Below, one piece after another: positions 12,685 through 62,065 of a stretch of 64,000 nucleotides of DNA (positions are counted from its first letter, which is position 1; each line of letters starts with the position of its first letter). The DNA comes from Porphyridium purpureum. Lineage: Eukaryota; Rhodophyta; Bangiophyceae; Porphyridiales; Porphyridiaceae. The DNA lies in the NCBI GenBank assembly GCA_008690995.1, contig VRMN01000001.1, forward strand, positions 4,898,001 through 4,962,000, given 5' to 3'. Position numbers and translations under genes: made by a program. Under the pieces are notes generated by a model. It saw nothing but the letters and a program-made list of their open reading frames with translations. It ran no database searches and was not told where the DNA came from.

Positions 12685-13093
12685 TCTGAGTATTAAAAAA
12701 AGAAACGGCGCAGCCGCTGGCACAAGCCGAACGCGCGCGTCCACGCGCTGCACGGGCTGGAACGGCATCGCAACGGGACAGCGAGAGGGAAACACAGGGG
12801 GAAAAGAGCCGCCGCACCACGCGATATCCACGAGACGCGTGGAGCAGCCGCGCATCGGCACCTCGCCACTTGTACATCCGTGTCTGTGTATCCCCCTGTC
12901 CCTTCACGGCACGTGCGCGGTGCGCAGCGCTTGGAGTGACGCCGCGCGCCCTGTACGTTTGGAACGCGGCGTATCTGTGTGTCGGTGTTGCGCGTATCGA
13001 TTCTGTGCGTCCGAGAGATAGGGGGGACGGAGTTTGGGAATTGAAGCGCGTACGAGCAGGTGTGGAGGCATTCGCGCGGCGTGCCGAGGAAGT

Positions 13094-16000
13094 ATGCCCT
13101 CCAGAGCAAGCGCTGTGCGCGTGGCGCGCGCGCTCGCGCAGAGTGCGCGCGACGTGGCCACGCCGGCTGTCCAGAGCCGCAAGCAAAATGTCGCAGGGTG
13201 CCGGTGGTCCTCGCCTCAGTCACAGTACCGCGCACTGCGCGCGTTTGCTTCCGAGAGTAAACCCCACGCGCAGCAGCAAGCACGCCCGTCCCAGCAGGCG
13301 GGCACCGCAGGCGCTCCGTCGGTGTTGGGACTCAACGTGGCGTCGCCCCAGCAGCAGCCGCCAAAGGCAAAGCGAGATCCATTTCCTGTGCTTTCAGGTG
13401 GCAAGCTGGATCCATCCGAGTCATTCATGACGGGCACGAACGCCGCAGTGCTGGAACAAATGTACGACCGGTACATGGAGGATCCATCCAAGCTACATGC
13501 GTCATGGGTGGCGTTTTTCAACAATATCGAGGCGGATGTGAAACCGGGACAGGCCGTGGCGCTCAGCCGCCAATCGCGCAACCAGCTGAGCAAGATTCCA
13601 GCCAGCATGACCGAAGGTCGCGACTTATTCCAGGTGTCTGAGGATACCATCAAGCTGATGGCGATGATGCGGGCCTATCGGCACCGAGGCCACTTGGTGG
13701 CAGATCTAGACCCGCTCCAGCTCAACGACTCGATCGACGTGGACGATGTTCTGGTGCCATACATTTCACGCAAAGAGCTCGAGCCGTCGTATTACGGCTT
13801 CACCGAGGCTGATCTGGACCGCGAGTTCGTGGTGTCGGGCGAAATCCCCGGCCCAGCCGTGCGCAAGTTGCGCGACGTGTATAACTTGCTGCGTGAATCA
13901 TATTGCGGCAAGGTCGGCGTCGAGTATCGCCATATGGTATCCAAAGAGGAGAAAGTCTGGATTTCGTCGTTTGTCGAGAATCCGAACAAGAGCAAGTTTT
14001 CGGTCGCAGAGAAGAAAATCATCCTTGAGGATTTGGCGCGGGCCGAGCTGTTTGAAAAATTCTTATCATTTAAGCACTCCACGGCCAAGCGCTTTGGTCT
14101 CGAAGGAGGAGAGTCAGTCATTCCCGGCCTGTTGGCGTTGGTCGAGCACGGTGCTGCGCTTGGCGTTGAGAACGTGATCATGGGCATGCCGCACCGCGGT
14201 CGCTTGAATGTTCTTGGCCATGTTGTACGCAAGCCCCTGGAACAGATCTTCCACGAGTTTACCCCACATGAGGACCCTGATGCAGACCAATACCTAGGGT
14301 CTGGAGACGTCAAGTACCATCTGGGCACCTCGCAAGAAGCATCGCTGCGTAATGGCCGCCGCGTGCACTTCTCGCTACTTGCTAACCCATCACATCTGGA
14401 GGCCGTAGACCCCGTTGTAATGGGGAAGACGCGAGCAAAGCAGTTTTTCACTGACGATTTTGATCGTCGCAAGACGGTCGCCGTCACGCTTCACGGTGAC
14501 GCGTCTTTTGCCGGCCAGGGCGTGGTGGCAGAAGTTCTTGAACTTTCGGACCTTCGAGACTACACGGTCGGCGGTACAATTCACATCGTTGTGAACAATC
14601 AAATTGGCTTTACGACAGATCCACGCTACGCGCGGTCGTCGCCATATCCCACGGACGTTGCCAAGACGGTCGGAATCCCAATTTTCCACGTGAACGGCGA
14701 CTCGGCGGAAGACGTTGTTCGCGTGTGTATGCTAGCCATGGAGTACCGCCAACGCTTCGGCAAGGATGTGGTCATCGACGTGTTTTGCTACCGTCGTCAT
14801 GGTCATAATGAGCTTGACCAGCCCATGTTCACCCAGCCGCTCATGTATAAGCGCATCAAGGAACACCCCACGGTGCTCAACGTGTACGCGAAGCAGCTAA
14901 TTTCTGAAGGCGCGGTTACCGAGGCCGAGTACAAGGAGATGCACGACACGATTATGGCCGAATTCAACAAGCGCTTCATTGCCGCAAAGGACTGGAAGCC
15001 CCACATGAAAGACTGGTTGGCTTCGCAGTGGAAGGGAATCCAGTCGCCGCACATCTTTTGCTCTCCCCGGAAGACCGGCGTCAAGGAAGAGCACTTGCGC
15101 GAAATTGGGCTCAAGACATGCAGGTTACCCACGGGCTTCCGCGCGCACCCACTCATCAAGAAAATTTTTGCAGAGCGTCGTACATCGATTGAGCTGGGCG
15201 AGTCGATTGATTGGGCAACCGCGGAGGCGATGGCGTTTGGAACTCTGCTTGCGGAAGGCACGCATGTTCGCCTCAGCGGACAGGACTGCGAGCGCGGTAC
15301 CTTCTCACAGCGCCATGCGGTGTTGCACGACCAAGACAAGCCTTCCAACTATATTCCGCTCAACAATCTCACACCAAAACAGGCCAAGTTCCGCGTCTGC
15401 AACTCAAACTTATCCGAAATGGCAGTGCTTGGTTTTGAAACAGGATACTCGCTGGAGAGCCCGAACGTGCTCGTTCTGTGGGAGGCGCAGTTCGGTGATT
15501 TTGCGAATGGTGCGCAGGTCATTATTGACACGTTTATTGCGGCCGGTGAGAAGAAGTGGCGTCGTCAAAGCGGTATCGTGTTGTTGCTACCACATGGGTA
15601 TGAGGGGCAGGGCCCAGAGCATTCGTCAGCAAGACTGGAGAGATACCTTCAGATGTGCGATGATGATCCGGATGTAGTCCCGGATCTAGACTCTGAGTCG
15701 ACCAAGCAAATTCAGGAGTGCAACTGGCAGGTGTGTAACCCGAGCACGCCGGCCAACTATTTCCACTTGTTGCGCCGTCAGATCCACCGCGGCTTCCGGA
15801 AGCCCCTGGTCGTGATGACTCCTAAGAGTCTGCTCAGGCACCCGCAGTGCAAGAGCAGTCTGTCCGACTTTGAGGAAGGCACAAGCTTCATCAGAGTACA
15901 GCCGGACGTGACCCCGGGCCTCAAGGCGCCTCACGAGATCAGACGTCTGGTGCTGTGCTCGGGCAAGGTTTTCTTTGATCTTTTCCGCGAGCGTACTAAG

Positions 16001-16306
16001 CGCGACGTAGAGGACGTCGCACTTGTGCGCATTGAGCAAATTTCGCCGTTTCCGTATGACTTGGTGGCGAAGGAGATCCGAAAGTACCCGAATGCAGATC
16101 TGGTGTGGTGTCAGGAGGAGAGCAAGAACATGGGCGCGTGGTCGTACGTGCTACCGCGCCTGGAGACCACACTCAGGCATTTTGATTTGAATCCGTCGCG
16201 CCGAATTCGTTACGCAGGTCGGTCGCCATCCGCCGCACCGGCAACGGGTAACGCTTTGACACACGCAGAGGAGACAACCGCGTTGTTGAATGCGAGCCTG
16301 CATTGA
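13094..16306 (+). CDS. OGDH: 2-oxoglutarate dehydrogenase E1 component, mitochondrial
   Basis: 1070 residues, the usual length of the family. It decarboxylates 2-oxoglutarate with thiamine diphosphate in the citric acid cycle complex of the mitochondrial matrix. The ATG at 13094 opens a typical presequence (MPSRASAVRVARALAQSARD). The N-terminal lipoyl-complex-binding segment ESFMTGTNAAVLEQMYDRY is followed by MRAYRHRGHLVADLDPL, the HRGRLNVL block at about residue 364, and the thiamine diphosphate site GDASFAGQG ... NNQIGFTT at about 470-505. The transketolase-like pyrimidine domain (GQDCERGTFSQRHAVLHDQ) and the C-terminal domain ending near NMGAWSYVLPRL are complete. Convergent with the GT92-like gene, 189 bp apart. 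Confidence 0.96.
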   Translation: MPSRASAVRVARALAQSARDVATPAVQSRKQNVAGCRWSSPQSQYRALRAFASESKPHAQQQARPSQQAGTAGAPSVLGLNVASPQQQPPKAKRDPFPVLSGGKLDPSESFMTGTNAAVLEQMYDRYMEDPSKLHASWVAFFNNIEADVKPGQAVALSRQSRNQLSKIPASMTEGRDLFQVSEDTIKLMAMMRAYRHRGHLVADLDPLQLNDSIDVDDVLVPYISRKELEPSYYGFTEADLDREFVVSGEIPGPAVRKLRDVYNLLRESYCGKVGVEYRHMVSKEEKVWISSFVENPNKSKFSVAEKKIILEDLARAELFEKFLSFKHSTAKRFGLEGGESVIPGLLALVEHGAALGVENVIMGMPHRGRLNVLGHVVRKPLEQIFHEFTPHEDPDADQYLGSGDVKYHLGTSQEASLRNGRRVHFSLLANPSHLEAVDPVVMGKTRAKQFFTDDFDRRKTVAVTLHGDASFAGQGVVAEVLELSDLRDYTVGGTIHIVVNNQIGFTTDPRYARSSPYPTDVAKTVGIPIFHVNGDSAEDVVRVCMLAMEYRQRFGKDVVIDVFCYRRHGHNELDQPMFTQPLMYKRIKEHPTVLNVYAKQLISEGAVTEAEYKEMHDTIMAEFNKRFIAAKDWKPHMKDWLASQWKGIQSPHIFCSPRKTGVKEEHLREIGLKTCRLPTGFRAHPLIKKIFAERRTSIELGESIDWATAEAMAFGTLLAEGTHVRLSGQDCERGTFSQRHAVLHDQDKPSNYIPLNNLTPKQAKFRVCNSNLSEMAVLGFETGYSLESPNVLVLWEAQFGDFANGAQVIIDTFIAAGEKKWRRQSGIVLLLPHGYEGQGPEHSSARLERYLQMCDDDPDVVPDLDSESTKQIQECNWQVCNPSTPANYFHLLRRQIHRGFRKPLVVMTPKSLLRHPQCKSSLSDFEEGTSFIRVQPDVTPGLKAPHEIRRLVLCSGKVFFDLFRERTKRDVEDVALVRIEQISPFPYDLVAKEIRKYPNADLVWCQEESKNMGAWSYVLPRLETTLRHFDLNPSRRIRYAGRSPSAAPATGNALTHAEETTALLNASLH

Positions 16307-29176: not shown

Positions 29177-30721
29177 CAGTCCTGGCCAAGATGTTTGCAA
29201 CACCTGCATTTTGGTCCAAAAAATTGGATCTTATAGTGAAATAGCCCATTTTAATAGAAAACTTATTTTTAACTCTTTTTTTAACATTGTTAACATCGAG
29301 CATGACGATGAACCAAGGCGCGGCGCGCGCGTTTTTGTTTTCCCCAGACCTTCAGAAGGTGCTCAAAGGATCTTCGCTCGCTGATCCATCTCCTCGTGCG
29401 CAAGTGGAGAGTCTCCAGATCGAAATTGAGCGCGCAACGGCCGAACGATGGCGCCGTGGCTGTCGGAACACGAAAAAGGGCAGATCGACGCCCTTGCGGG
29501 CCAGGAACTGTCGGTGCGAGCCATTGCGAAGGCTCTGAAGCCTCGCCCAGATCGCTCGCGACCGTCCTATGCAACTGTGAGCCGTTATCTGGCGTCAAGG
29601 GGGCGCCGAATTGTCCGCAAGAAGCCAGGTCCGAAACGGCTTTTGAGTCGCAAATCGGAACGCCGCATCATTCGCGCCGTATCTGTTGATGCACTGACGT
29701 CCGGACAGGTGGTTCACGAGCTGCACTTGCAGTGCTCGGCCAGGACAGTGCGTCGGACGCTTCAAGCAGCAGGCTTTCTTCGCTACAAGCGAGTCTCGCG
29801 GAAACCTTCGCTGTCGTCTGACAACATCAGGAAGCGTTTGGCGTTTGCCACCGCATGCATTGCGAAACCAATGGCTTTCTGGCATCAAGTGGTCTTTTCA
29901 GACGAGAAGATTTGGAGCTGCGATGGCCCGTTCGGCTCCTCGCAGCGATGGGTCGACTGTCGCGCTAAGTCAAGTTCGTACGCCAGGCGCCAGCACTCTG
30001 GAGGTGGCAAGGTTCACATGTGGGCAGGTATGTCCCTGCGCGGCCTAACAATGGCCGTCTTCGTCGAGGGTGGCTTGAATGCCGTGAAGTATCAACAAGT
30101 CTTGCTGGAAGCCTTGCTTCCGTTCGGCCTGGAAATGTATGACTTCAATTTCACTTTCCAGCAAGACAATGCCCCGGCACATACGGCCAACTCGACCAAG
30201 GCGTGGCTCGACGCACTCGGCGTCACTGTGCTGCCGTGGCCTGCAAGGTCTCCGGACCTTAACCCAATTGAAAACATTTGGGGTGTCTTGTCGCGCGTGG
30301 TTTACCGAAAAGGCCGCCAGTTCGCACGCGTCGCAGAACTTAAGGCTGCCGTGCTTGCGGCGTGGGCGGCCGAGGCCCAAAAGTACGTAGTTCCACTCTT
30401 CGATTCCATGCCTTGCCGTCTTCAAGCTGTACTGGACGCGCGCGGCCACCACACCAAGTACTAAAGTCTCGTCCTTCTTGCTCTTCGTGTGTCTTTGTTA
30501 CGTTCCAAAACTTGCGCCCCTCGCCAATACCCCCTTTTTGGTGTCTCCATTGCCCAAGCGCTCTTTCCTTGCCTTTTCCTCCCGGTTGGACGCTCCCCAG
30601 TATTTCTTGGGACGCGCGATCGATTGGCGTGCTCAAAACGTACCCTTGTCTATCAAGATTCTTCACTTATACACGAATTTCCCTTTTTATGAGGGTGTTG
30701 CAAACATCTTGGCCAGGACTG
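29177..30721 (+). mobile_element. Tc1-type DNA transposon, complete (element 1)
   Basis: 1545 bp bounded by perfect 28-30 bp terminal inverted repeats beginning CAGTCCTGGCCAAGATG and continuing TTTGCAACACC at both ends (left 29177-29204, right 30694-30721). The flanking TA dinucleotides at 29175-29176 and 30722-30723 are the expected target duplication. The start CAGT-CTGGCC is like that of nematode Tc1. One uninterrupted transposase gene lies inside. Identical ends and an intact gene suggest a young and possibly active copy. Removing it and one TA restores AGAAGTACAGTTGGC, a copy of the genome's recurrent GTACAGT motif. The element stands between the ABHD13-like gene and the small Tim gene. 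Confidence 0.95.
29448..30464 (+). CDS. Tc1-family DD34E transposase (element 1)
   Basis: 338 residues. The N-terminal part has two helix-turn-helix units (about 5-50 EKGQIDALAGQELSVRAIAKAL and 65-115) with a GRRI-like basic linker between, the DNA-binding PAIRED-like region of Tc1 transposases. The catalytic triad is Asp152 in VVFSDEK, Asp240 in FQQDNAPAHTA and Glu275 in SPDLNPIENIW; 34 residues separate the last two, hence DD34E, the Tc1 type rather than mariner DD34D. The block WPARSPDLNPIEN is diagnostic. No stops or frameshifts are visible. It shares start, layout and many residues with the transposase at 60780 but is clearly a different subfamily. Confidence 0.96.
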   Translation: MAPWLSEHEKGQIDALAGQELSVRAIAKALKPRPDRSRPSYATVSRYLASRGRRIVRKKPGPKRLLSRKSERRIIRAVSVDALTSGQVVHELHLQCSARTVRRTLQAAGFLRYKRVSRKPSLSSDNIRKRLAFATACIAKPMAFWHQVVFSDEKIWSCDGPFGSSQRWVDCRAKSSSYARRQHSGGGKVHMWAGMSLRGLTMAVFVEGGLNAVKYQQVLLEALLPFGLEMYDFNFTFQQDNAPAHTANSTKAWLDALGVTVLPWPARSPDLNPIENIWGVLSRVVYRKGRQFARVAELKAAVLAAWAAEAQKYVVPLFDSMPCRLQAVLDARGHHTKY

Positions 30722-54569: not shown

Positions 54570-55559
54570 CGCTGCTTCCACAAGCGCACCCCCCGCCCCT
54601 TTGTCGCAGTTCCTCTCGCAGACCTGGAGCTGCCTTGTCAACAGCCTGGCTGTGCCGACCTCCGGCTTTTGATCAATTCGCGTCATTTCTGTGGATCTGT
54701 ATTCCGATGATGAAACCAAGCACGGCCGAGTGGTCGGCGAGGGTATTTGTGAGCTTCGGAAAGCCGGGCTGCGATAAGAAGAGACGGGGGACCTAGCAGA
54801 GAAATGGCTCCCGTATGCGGAGCTTAGCACATGACAGGTTGAGGTCCCGGCCCATTTATGATGTTTGAGCAAAGTCCTGACGCGAAAAAGCCGCACGTTC
54901 GATATTTCAGTGTCAAGAAAGTCGCCGGCCACACGTGCAGGAGAACAGGTAAGCGGTCGAGGGCTGGGCTCTAGCTTTCAGCAGACGTGCAGCGAAAGTG
55001 GCTGCACGGTGCTCCGTGGTTCCCGGTGAGCGCCTGGACACCGATGCCTAGGTTGCCAACAAATCGCACAGGAATCGCCACCGGCAACGAACGCACGCGA
55101 CCAGAATCTCTCTTGCACGCAACCTCGAACCCAGATACCCCAAAGCACTTTGCCGCCTTGTTTTTCGCGCAGTGCGGTGCATGCTGACTAGAAAATGCGT
55201 GCCTTCGCGACCGAGAGCTCCAGACTCTCGAAACGAAACACTGCCCTGTCGCAAACAGAAACACGAGCAGTGTTCCGAGCTACGACATACCAGCACTGGA
55301 GTGAGGACATCCAAACTCTCACCCTGCTTTCTCACAGGTTATATTGCACGATATTGCACGTGGCTGCACGTTGAGTCGGCGACTCGGTGAGTTTCTTTGT
55401 CTGCAGCCGGGGTGTGATCCAGGTCTGCCGAGCGCCGCGCTGCTCGCGCAGTGCTGAGGAACTGTGGGTACAACGGTATTTACGCGTAAAATGTTGCCAC
55501 TTGCGACAGCGACACGCGGCGCGCGCCACCAAAAATGTTAAACATCCATTTTGTGTATC
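54570..55559. other. Intergenic region between ArgJ and tRNA-Leu
   Basis: 990 bp. It holds the ArgJ promoter and a tandem ATATTGCACG pair at about 55342-55361, with a GAGTCGGCGACTC palindrome at about 55373-55385. No gene recognised. Confidence 0.5.
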
Positions 55560-55669
55560 TGCTACCGACGGGGTTCGAACCCGTGTGCGGCATAACCGCA
55601 GGAGATCCCTTGTGACCAAAACTTAAGTCTCCCTCCTTCTGCAGCGTGAAACCACTCGGACACAGTAGC
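55560..55669 (-). tRNA. tRNA-Leu(UAA) with an anticodon-loop intron and extra D-loop bases
   Basis: Read on the minus strand from 55669. Acceptor GCTACTG (55669-55663) pairs with CGGTAGC (55567-55561), with discriminator A at 55560 as expected for Leu. A-box TGTCCGAGTGG (55662-55652) and B-box GGGTTCGAACCC are present; the T stem is ACGGG/CCCGT. The anticodon stem GGAGA (55632-55628)/TCTCC (55605-55601) encloses CTTAAG, anticodon TAA at 55625-55623. A 15-nt intron (55621-55607) follows G37, the standard site. The long variable arm is TGCGG-TTATG-CCGCA, a class II feature. The D loop between TCC (55660-55658) and GGA (55636-55634) is 21 nt; about 11 bases (TCACGCTGCAG, near 55649-55639) are surplus, and without them it reads GAGTGGTTAA, the canonical form. 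That looks like a second, ectopic intron. Confidence 0.85.
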
Positions 55670-56391
55670 GAATTGCGTGCGGGAGACAGCTTCTTTGCTT
55701 TCTGCCCCTCACCTTCAAAATAGATGCGCACGAAGGGGAAAATTTAAAATATTTATCTATGAGTGTGCTGATGGGTGCCTATTGAGTAATTTTTGGGAGG
55801 CGCGGTTTAGGTGTGTGAAAGTTGCTTGCTGGCGTTTTCTTGAGTTTGCTTCGATCACAGGCGAGATGTGTCGTCCATACCGGCAGAATCGACGGCTTCG
55901 ACATCGCCAAACTTGGCATTGACTTGCGACGCACAGAGCTGCTGTCCTGCGCGGTGCTTGGGGATCTGCCTCTTTGGGCGTTGCTGACGTCGAGTATGAC
56001 TGCGGCCAAGACAGACTTGTGTCTGCTTGGCGTGCGGCCCAAGCCGCTGGAGCCCTGCTAATCACGCTTCGTGTCTGACCGAGCCCTCCTGGATCAACAT
56101 CCTCGGCTCCTTCACGGCACGTCGTCGCCACTCTCGTCTGTACCGCATCGCGCCATCGGCGCAGATTCACGCGCGCGCGCTGGCCTGCCCCCTCATCACC
56201 CCCGCCCGCCCTCGGCTTCTTTCCGCGCAAAGCACGTGTGTTTTCAGCCAGCGCGCGTTTTTGATTGGTTGGTTGAGCTTGCACGTGAAAGGTTGCGGGT
56301 TGCGGGAAGGTGGGAAGGGGCTTCGTGGGAGAGACGTGGCGATGATTTAGGTAGAACGTTGGCGGTGAAGGAGGACAGGTGATTCAACGTG
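55670..56391. other. Intergenic region upstream of NF-YA
   Basis: 722 bp. Frames of up to 175 codons on the minus strand (to 56284) and 80 on the plus (55822-56061) show no family features. TTGATTGGTTGG at 56261-56272 contains an ATTGG (reverse CCAAT) box about 125 bp before the NF-YA start. CACGTG-type ATGs and CGCGCG stretches are common. Confidence 0.45.
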
Positions 56392-60516: not shown

Positions 60517-62065
60517 CACTCCTGGCCAAGATGGTTGTCCCAGGTGCAATTTCAAGGTCTGAACTCCAGTTTTATAGTAAAAACGAGCGTTTTCATATGA
60601 AATCAATGTTTATACCTTTTTTAACATATTTTTGTTCACCATGTCAGAGGTAAGCGCGCGCTTTTGCGGGACCCCATGAGGCCATGAAGGGGTTCAAGAC
60701 ATGTGAAAGAAGACTAACGCATCTACTGCACTCGGGCATACGATCGCGACCAAGTCCAGCAACCGCAAGCATCGGAAACATGGCACCACGGCTCTCCGAC
60801 TTCGAGAAAGGGCAGATTGACGCTCTGCACCGGCTCTGTCTGACGCCGCAGGCCATTGCAGCACGTCTTCGTCCGCGACCAGACAAGACTCGACCATCGT
60901 ACAAGACTGTGGAGCGATTTCTGAAGAATCGAGGCAAGAAGAGGGTTTTCAAGAAGCCCGGACCGGCACGGACAATATCGCCGAAATTGGAGCGTCGCCT
61001 GATTCGGCACGTCATTACGGATAGGTTGACGTCTGCACAGGCAGTGACGGAGCTGCAGCTTGCGTGCAGTGCGAGAACTGTTCGTCGTATCCTGCAGAGA
61101 TCACCAGAGGTTCGTATTATCGCGCAGAGGCGAAAGTTCTTCATTTCGGAAAAGAACCGAGTCAAGCGGCTTGCATTTGCTCGAGAATACGTTCACAAGC
61201 CGCTATCGTTTTGGAAGAATGTCATCTTCTCGGATGAAAAGATCTTTCGGCTGGACGGGCCACACGGGTACAACAAGACTTATCAGCGAACGCGAGGCCC
61301 TGAGCCCGCGCCAACCATGCGTCGCCATAGTGGCGGAGGATCCGCAATGTTTTGGGGTGCCATGTCGTGGTACGGACTGAGTACGTTGCATCGTGTTCAA
61401 GGCTCGCTGAATGCCGAGCGATATCGGCAGGTTATGCTGAACGTCATAATGCCCTGGGCACTGGAACTGCCTTGGCGCCTTGATCAGCCGGATTGTCCAT
61501 TCATATTTCAGCAAGATAATGCGCCCGGACATGCAGCGCTGAGCACGCGCGAGCTGTTTGACACGGTTGGAATCGCACTACTTGATCGGCTAGCGCGGTC
61601 GCCGGACTTGAATCCAGTTGAGAATCTGTGGGCGATCGTTTCTCGCCGTGTGCATTGGCAAGGACGCCAGTTTATGCGCCTCGATGACATGCTTCCAGTT
61701 ATCTATGACTGCTGGCGAACGGAAGCGCCAAAATATGTTGAGGCACTTTTCGAGAGCATGCCCCGTCGCCTGCAAGCTTGCATCGACGCCGGTGGCCGTC
61801 AAACCAAGTACTAGTTTCGTTACTACAGTTAAATCTCTTCTCATAAGCGTGTTCGTCCTCATCAACCTGTTTTATTATTTTTCTCTTTTTCGGCACTTCT
61901 CACACCTGTCGTTTTGTTCTACGATACCTTTGGACGCCCCTACCCATTTTCCGTGCCGCTGATTCTTTTCGTGCCATCAAAACAGACGACAACCTAGTCG
62001 AAAAGCCGAGTTATTCACAAAAAACTTCATTTAATCCTGTGGGACAACTAACTTGGCCAGGACTG
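60517..62065 (+). mobile_element. Tc1-type DNA transposon, complete (element 2)
   Basis: 1549 bp. Terminal inverted repeats of about 26 bp with three mismatches: left CACTCCTGGCCAAGATGG..., right (reverse) CAGTCCTGGCCAAGTTAG..., both continuing TTGTCCCA. TA duplications flank it at 60515-60516 and 62066-62067. The outer 14 bases match those of element 1, the inner parts differ, so the two are distinct but related families. The transposase gene is uninterrupted. Imperfect ends suggest a somewhat older insertion than element 1. Its left flank is GGAGGTACAG-TA, so it landed at the edge of a GTACAGT motif. Confidence 0.93.
60780..61814 (+). CDS. Tc1-family DD34E transposase (element 2)
   Basis: 344 residues from ATG at 60780, the position homologous to the start of the element 1 protein (MAPRLSDFEKGQIDAL versus MAPWLSEHEKGQIDAL). 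Helix-turn-helix region at about 8-110 with the linker RGKKRVFKKPGPARTI. Catalytic residues are Asp152 (VIFSDEK), Asp246 (FQQDNAPGHAA) and Glu281 (SPDLNPVENLW), 34 residues between the last two. LDGPHGYNKTY and HSGGGSAMFWGAMSWYG are family blocks. The C-terminus (MPRRLQACIDAGGRQTKY) is nearly shared with element 1 (MPCRLQAVLDARGHHTKY). No breaks are visible. Confidence 0.95.
   Translation: MAPRLSDFEKGQIDALHRLCLTPQAIAARLRPRPDKTRPSYKTVERFLKNRGKKRVFKKPGPARTISPKLERRLIRHVITDRLTSAQAVTELQLACSARTVRRILQRSPEVRIIAQRRKFFISEKNRVKRLAFAREYVHKPLSFWKNVIFSDEKIFRLDGPHGYNKTYQRTRGPEPAPTMRRHSGGGSAMFWGAMSWYGLSTLHRVQGSLNAERYRQVMLNVIMPWALELPWRLDQPDCPFIFQQDNAPGHAALSTRELFDTVGIALLDRLARSPDLNPVENLWAIVSRRVHWQGRQFMRLDDMLPVIYDCWRTEAPKYVEALFESMPRRLQACIDAGGRQTKY

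Follow-up and report, generated by a model that had tools for sequence, protein, structure and literature searches.

The window, a stretch of 64,000 nucleotides (nt) from the genome of the red alga Porphyridium purpureum (contig VRMN01000001.1, positions 4,898,001 to 4,962,000), carries a class II transfer RNA (tRNA) gene for leucine, tRNA-Leu(UAA), that is interrupted in two places (Table 1). Read on the minus strand, with the two interrupting segments in parentheses, the gene parses as GCTACTG TG TCC GAGTGGTT(TCACGCTGCAG)AA GGA G GGAGA CTTAAG(TTTTGGTCACAAGGG)A TCTCC TGCGGTTATGCCGCAC ACGGG TTCGAAC CCCGT CGGTAGC A. The acceptor stem (7/7 pairs), the anticodon stem (5/5) and the T stem (5/5) are complete, the discriminator base is A, and the two halves of the gene stand in normal order, not with the 3′ half placed first as in a permuted gene. 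The second segment is a conventional intron at position 37/38; it lies one nucleotide 3′ of the anticodon and has the anticodon–intron (A-I) pair, as canonical eukaryotic introns do. The first segment lies in the D loop. A preliminary description, made from the letters of the DNA, had proposed a gene interrupted in this way, with readable and paired arms, a conventional 15-nt intron and about 11 surplus bases in the D loop; our parse agrees with it in every part and in its coordinates.

Table 1. Features of the tRNA-Leu(UAA) locus and its window, and permuted tRNA genes elsewhere in the genome
Feature	Position	Strand	Remarks
tRNA-Leu(UAA) gene, class II	55560..55669	-	110 nt raw; inferred mature form 84 nt
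Exon 1: acceptor 5′ strand, A box, D loop through GGTT (about position 20a)	55650..55669	-	
D-loop insert TCACGCTGCAG, read as ectopic bulge-helix-bulge (BHB) intron	55639..55649	-	11 nt; placed by script; CTGC of the insert pairs with exon GTGG
Exon 2: AAGGA G GGAGA CTTAAG, remaining D arm and anticodon arm up to position 37	55622..55638	-	
Intron at the canonical 37/38 site	55607..55621	-	15 nt; placed by script; A-I pair C32:G(-3)
Exon 3: position 38 through discriminator A, with class II variable arm TGCGG/CCGCA and T arm	55560..55606	-	
AT-rich box ATAAATATTTTAAATTTTCCCC, upstream	55735..55756	-	found by pattern
Run of five T, possible RNA polymerase III terminator	55531..55535	-	25 nt downstream
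Open reading frame (ORF), 2-oxoglutarate dehydrogenase	13034-16306		100% identity to a Porphyridium purpureum protein over 94% aligned
Permuted Lys(UUU) gene, L013	G000:C2, match 2091229-2091293	-	permuted at 59/60; BHB helix TTCG/CGAA; 27-nt intervening sequence; 3′ half just upstream of 5′ half
Permuted genes at L016, L125, L133, L149, L154 and L017			respectively Thr(UGU), Ser(AGA) with D insert, Leu(AAG), Leu(CAG), Glu(UUC) with T-loop insert, and Ile(UAU) with D insert

The D-loop insert lies outside 37/38 and its removal leaves a standard tRNA; in this sense it is an ectopic intron. ARAGORN, run with introns allowed, recognised no tRNA in the raw gene, nor in the gene after removal of the 37/38 intron alone. 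With the D-loop insert alone removed it reported a Leu gene, setting the 15-nt intron two bases early and thus reading the anticodon as tag; with both segments removed it reported Leu(taa) of 84 nt. Scans of the whole window returned no gene with ARAGORN and no match with Rfam at gathering thresholds. Default tools overlook this gene, and ARAGORN names a Leu tRNA only when the D-loop insert is absent.

The genome (22.16 Mb in 46 contigs) was searched with the Rfam tRNA family and with B-box and A-box patterns. Rfam gave 17 matches, 12 of them above cut-off, and from all searches 30 tRNA genes were rebuilt, every one with a different anticodon and with its raw string verified against the genome DNA. 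ARAGORN identified each of the 30 inferred mature tRNAs and gave it the expected anticodon; exon boundaries were set with the cloverleaf in mind, so that this recognition is a consistency check and not independent proof. Seven genes are uninterrupted, two have a 37/38 intron alone and 21 are disrupted otherwise. D-arm inserts occur in 12 genes, T-loop inserts in eight and 37/38 introns in 11; seven genes are circularly permuted, five at 37/38 (Leu(AAG), Leu(CAG), Ser(AGA), Thr(UGU), and Glu(UUC)) and two at 59/60 (Lys(UUU) and Ile(UAU)). Leu(UAG) and Pro(UGG) are each interrupted by three introns. Asn(GUU) (L174) has D, 37/38, and T-loop inserts, and the 11 surplus bases of its variable region may be a fourth intron. 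The weakest parse is that of Val(UAC), with 6/7 acceptor pairs and 4/5 pairs in the anticodon stem. With many D- and T-arm introns and permuted genes in one nuclear genome (21 of 30 genes disrupted, seven permuted), P. purpureum shows the gene structures of a highly disrupted tRNA gene system of the red-algal kind.

In five class II genes the D insert stands at one common site, GAGYGGTT/AA (the slash marks the insertion point), with lengths of 11 nt in Leu(UAA), 22 in Leu(UAG), 26 in Ser(UGA), 12 in Ser(AGA), and 30 in Ser(GCU); removal of the insert restores a loop of the GAGCGGTTAA type in all five. Leu(CAA) and Ser(CGA) have the intact D loop GAGCGGTTAA, with GAGYGGTTAA unbroken, and the permuted Leu(AAG) and Leu(CAG) genes have GAGTGGTCTAA without a break. 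Because the intact paralogues show the unbroken loop, the class II splice sites were set by the GGTT/AA consensus and not by pairing, and because four other Leu and Ser genes have an insert at the same site, the insert in Leu(UAA) is beyond chance.

Pairing at the joints was scored between exon positions -6 to -3 before the 5′ site and intron positions -6 to -3 before the 3′ site, a register that we take to be that of the BHB central helix. In this register position 32 meets intron -3, and 10 of the 11 37/38 introns show the A-I pair. At the class II D site 18 of 20 pairs form across the five genes; shuffled introns gave a mean of 9.99 and reached 18 or more in 32 of 200,000 shuffles, and eight alternative registers gave 6–12 pairs. 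The preliminary description had proposed looking through the genome for more D-arm introns and for BHB motifs at their joints; the 12 D-arm inserts and this class II pairing are what such a search brought out. The 37/38 introns, used as a positive control, gave 33/44 pairs (null 18.9). T-loop inserts gave 28/32 pairs with the better of two junctions (null 19.6; 0 of 20,000 shuffles) and 24/32 with 59/60 forced (null 14.5; P 0.00015). In Leu(UAA) itself the helix GTGG/CTGC has 4/4 pairs, two of them G-U, and is a full 4-bp helix. The strict hBHBh′ form, with a second bulge and an inner helix, was not found at this D insert; only the relaxed hBH form is possible, because just TT and the 5-nt TCACG are left inside the helix. 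Relaxed forms count as accepted members of the BHB class (PMC3978253).

Two loci in the genome match PF01974 above cut-off; in sequence searches the first is closest to Sen2 PDB chains (best 1.2e-13) and the second to Sen34 (4.5e-20), and Pfam agrees for both. PF12928, which we take to be the N-terminal domain of Sen54, has one match in the genome. Judged by these similarities, homologues of Sen2, Sen34, and Sen54 are present in P. purpureum. The same three homologues are reported from the red alga Cyanidioschyzon merolae, where Sen15 was not detected (PMC3978253).

We consider it very probable that the locus, the sole tRNA-Leu(UAA) gene found, is a functional nuclear gene whose pre-tRNA has two introns, and that the D-loop insert is an ectopic BHB intron cut by the Sen2/Sen34 endonuclease as part of a genome-wide system. 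This explanation builds on the anatomy of the gene, the site common to five class II genes, BHB complementarity above that of shuffles, the Sen homologues, and the lack of a second copy in our searches; transcription, excision, ligation, and the order of the steps are predicted from the sequence. The pre-tRNA would be transcribed by RNA polymerase III, and its D-loop joint would fold as a relaxed (hBH) BHB, with exon GTGG paired to intron CTGC. The Sen2/Sen34 endonuclease would then cut after GGTT and before AA, and a ligase would join the ends at the D-loop site. The canonical 37/38 intron would also be cut, probably last, as reported in C. merolae (PMC3978253). The seven permuted genes need end joining to yield any tRNA.

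Used as a DNA query of the genome, the 110-nt gene returned itself alone, and the A-box scan likewise gave no further Leu(UAA) gene, though a copy that has diverged strongly could be missed by both the query and the pattern. An intact second gene, which the preliminary description had named as evidence that would tell against it, was thus looked for and not found within these limits. Of the 30 genes, 17 have a match to an AT-box pattern upstream; for 13 of these the box lies at -23 to -47 relative to the gene (to its 3′ half if permuted). The box is farther off, at -67 to -108, in Leu(UAA), Leu(UAG) (L127), Ser(GCU) (L142), and Arg(UCU) (L006), which look as if they had long leaders. The pattern is a simple one, applied without a shuffle control, and passes over several AT-rich stretches visible by eye. 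A run of four T lies within 50 nt downstream of all 30 genes (in Leu(UAA) a run of five at +25), and each of the seven permuted genes has a T run after its 5′ half. As expression signals these boxes and runs are suggestive only. Public small-RNA data exist for Porphyridium (SRP071761; PMC4981961).

Several points weigh against excision of the D insert by the Sen endonuclease. The loss of 11 nt from the mature tRNA is a prediction from the DNA; the insert might instead be kept, giving a mature tRNA-Leu(UAA) with a 21-nt D loop, and the D stem TCC/GGA does close round such a loop in the sequence. The 4/4 helix of Leu(UAA) is singly weak evidence, as 1,539 of 20,000 shuffles equal it, and the minimum-energy fold of the unspliced RNA has no D arm, anticodon arm, or BHB and is of ordinary stability (z -1.07). 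Class I D-arm sites are less exact: in the six genes scored (Ala(UGC) excluded) 22/24 pairs form with boundaries picked among options (null 17.4, P 0.012), and these boundaries are uncertain by a few bases, the enumeration differing from the catalogue for Gly(GCC), Val(UAC), Asn(GUU), and Ile(UAU). Permuted joints gave 22/28 pairs in the strict register, a figure without a shuffle control; Leu(AAG) and Ser(AGA) have just 2/4 each, with 8- and 7-bp helices nearby. The AT box of Leu(UAA), at about -80, is farther off than in 13 of the 17 genes with a box, where it stands at -23 to -47. Retention of the insert is nevertheless very improbable. At one site five class II genes carry inserts that range from 11 to 30 nt, two intact paralogues have the short loop, the BHB pairing is well over that of shuffles, and the T-loop disruptions and permuted genes of the same genome cannot stay unprocessed.

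The distance of the AT box, greater than in most genes having one, would also fit a decayed pseudogene, and a 2014 review states that insertions in the D or T arm of eukaryotic tRNA genes are usually taken to mark pseudogenes if synonymous copies exist (PMC4090602). Here no synonymous copy was found, though a strongly divergent one could be missed by the DNA query and the A-box pattern; every stem is paired; and the 21 of 30 genes with disruptions outside 37/38, each the one gene found for its anticodon, cannot all be pseudogenes. Decay is on these grounds scarcely credible. We also give very little credence to removal of the D insert by something other than the Sen endonuclease. It has a precedent in the nucleomorph of Guillardia theta, where non-canonical inserts of 3–24 nt, many without a defined BHB, are removed by means not known (PMC4090602, PMC3978253), but in P. 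purpureum complementarity in the endonuclease register is found at D, T, and 37/38 sites, and Sen2 and Sen34 are present. All three alternatives fit less well than a spliced nuclear gene with an ectopic BHB intron.

The depth of the catalogue varied with the search. The B-box pattern GGTTCGANNCC occurs at 169 places, against 239 for the reversed control. Follow-up took in 111 of these (79 + 32), the 58 GGTTCGANGCC places standing outside it; 100 regions cover 101 of the 111, and of the other ten places five lie in genes already catalogued (the window's gene twice) and five were outside follow-up. A T-stem filter on the 100 regions passed 30 places, with L035 and L103 alone recognised as tRNA genes. 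The A-box scan TGNCCGAGYGGT found 27 places, nine of which are Leu or Ser genes, one apiece for five Leu and four Ser anticodons; in two other A-box scans 6 of 11 and 9 of 15 places were tRNA genes or candidates, and the rest were discarded by eye. A query of 24 concatenated human tRNAs gave four places, all previously found, and a further pattern scan of the genome gave 156 places against 167 in its control. The catalogue is incomplete: initiator Met, Trp, His, Cys, Tyr, and Asp are among the genes not found by the pattern and Rfam searches.

For Lys(UUU) a linear reading with a T-loop intron (cmsearch 52.6 bits) was considered and rejected, having two acceptor mismatches and a run of five T inside the insert (by eye); the permuted reading has 7/7 acceptor pairs (three of them G-U, by eye) and a further 5/5 pairs. 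Two more tRNA-like candidates, L018/L150 (G000:C1, about 440027-440247) and L151 (G000:C1, about 1360007), have matching 7-bp acceptor strands and A boxes, and probably carry several introns. The T loop of Val(CAC) (L171) reads CTCAA in place of TTCRA, with C at position 54. The Gly(CCC) gene (L008), which has a D insert, is misnamed tRNA-SeC(tca) by ARAGORN. A published scan lists tRNA-SeC in four unicellular red algae (PMC10496412), and its call in P. purpureum may be the same D-insert artefact. In the window itself two plus-strand ORFs (29448-30464 and 60684-61814; 338 and 376 amino acids) have by eye the look of Tc1/mariner-type transposases.

Ectopic and multiple introns in the nuclear tRNA genes of C. 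merolae were reported by Soma et al. (2007, 2013; via PMC9602550 and PMC3978253), and the statement of the preliminary description that D-arm introns and permuted genes are known from this alga is borne out by these later papers. Introns occur in more than 62% of C. merolae tRNA genes, and at least 12 genes carry multiple introns (PMC9602550). In its tRNA-Leu(UAA) gene the permutation junction falls at 20/21, within the D loop, and a 21-bp intron sits at 37/38 (PMC3978253, Table 1); its Ile(UAU) gene has D-, anticodon-, and T-arm introns (PMC9602550). P. purpureum resembles it in being a red alga with D-, anticodon-, and T-arm introns, BHB joints, and homologues of Sen2, Sen34, and Sen54. In contrast, C. 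merolae is an acidothermophile with a permuted Leu(UAA) gene, whereas P. purpureum is described as a mesophilic unicellular red alga (PMC10991915), as the preliminary description had supposed, and its Leu(UAA) gene keeps the linear order, with a D insert of 11 nt and a 37/38 intron of 15 nt.

Leu(UAA) is broken at the same two places in both species (the numbering 20/20a is uncertain), the D-loop break being a junction in C. merolae and an intron in P. purpureum. The T arm of Ile(UAU) holds an intron in C. merolae; in P. purpureum this gene combines a D insert with a permutation at 59/60. Both algae have permuted genes for Lys(UUU), with the junction at 59/60, and for Leu(CAG), with the junction at 37/38. 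Shared permuted isoacceptors are not supported as proof of common descent: two of seven are shared, against 6 x 7 / 30 = 1.4 by chance (hand arithmetic). It is possible, though we lean somewhat against it, that the D-loop break of Leu(UAA) predates the split of Cyanidiophyceae and Porphyridium, one lineage having kept it as an intron and the other having turned it into a permutation junction. For the T arm of Ile(UAU) the change may have run the opposite way, and Lys(UUU) 59/60 and Leu(CAG) 37/38 would be inherited permutations. Sites of disruption in red algae would on this account be old and convertible.

Beyond red algae, eukaryotic ectopic introns and permuted tRNA genes are described in reviews from small green algae and nucleomorphs as well as from the extremophile red alga, and also from archaea. 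Permuted genes are known from C. merolae, prasinophytes, the Bigelowiella nucleomorph, and Thermofilum (PMC3978253), and also from Auxenochlorella. The seven P. purpureum genes whose 3′ half precedes the 5′ half are of this kind; the window's Leu(UAA) gene differs in not being permuted. The Guillardia nucleomorph is the nuclear remnant of an enslaved alga, of red-algal origin. Short D- and T-arm introns are known from it, with excision confirmed by sequenced products of reverse transcription PCR (PMC4090602; Kawach et al. 2005 via reviews). Many of these introns have no defined BHB, and they differ from those of P. purpureum also in that the latter belong to the nucleus of a free-living alga. 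Crenarchaeota have BHB introns at non-canonical positions across the cloverleaf (PMC3978253); the likeness lies in BHB-defined splice sites, and the P. purpureum genes differ in being eukaryotic, with no CCA encoded in the sequence and with a Sen-type endonuclease.

Ectopic BHB introns and permuted tRNA genes are thus of a known kind; what appears to be new, within the literature searched, is that a mesophilic red alga has so many of them. Among the matches listed from open full texts no report of ectopic introns or permuted tRNA genes in Porphyridium was found; subscription papers lay mostly outside this search, and a report elsewhere is possible. The suggestion that disrupted nuclear tRNA genes and their processing are a wider rhodophyte feature holds for one lineage outside Cyanidiophyceae as far as the many D-arm and T-loop inserts and the permuted genes go, excision itself being predicted. 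The genome-wide scale of the disruption, and the breaks of C. merolae Leu(UAA) at 20/21 and 37/38, lay beyond the view of the preliminary description.

In default tRNAscan-SE runs, multicellular red algae and Galdieria have 82–165 tRNA genes and the other three unicellular red algae, P. purpureum among them, have 22–26 (PMC10496412); hidden disrupted genes would account for these low counts in three of the four unicellular species. Heat and acid become less likely as the explanation of disrupted genes when at least 21 of these occur in a culturable, mesophilic red alga. With its genome there is a second red alga for studying the age of permuted genes, which may be ancient or may have been derived repeatedly from intron-bearing genes. 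Because the same place in the D loop of Leu(UAA) is an intron in P. purpureum and a junction in C. merolae, this pair of genes makes the duplication model of permutation directly testable.
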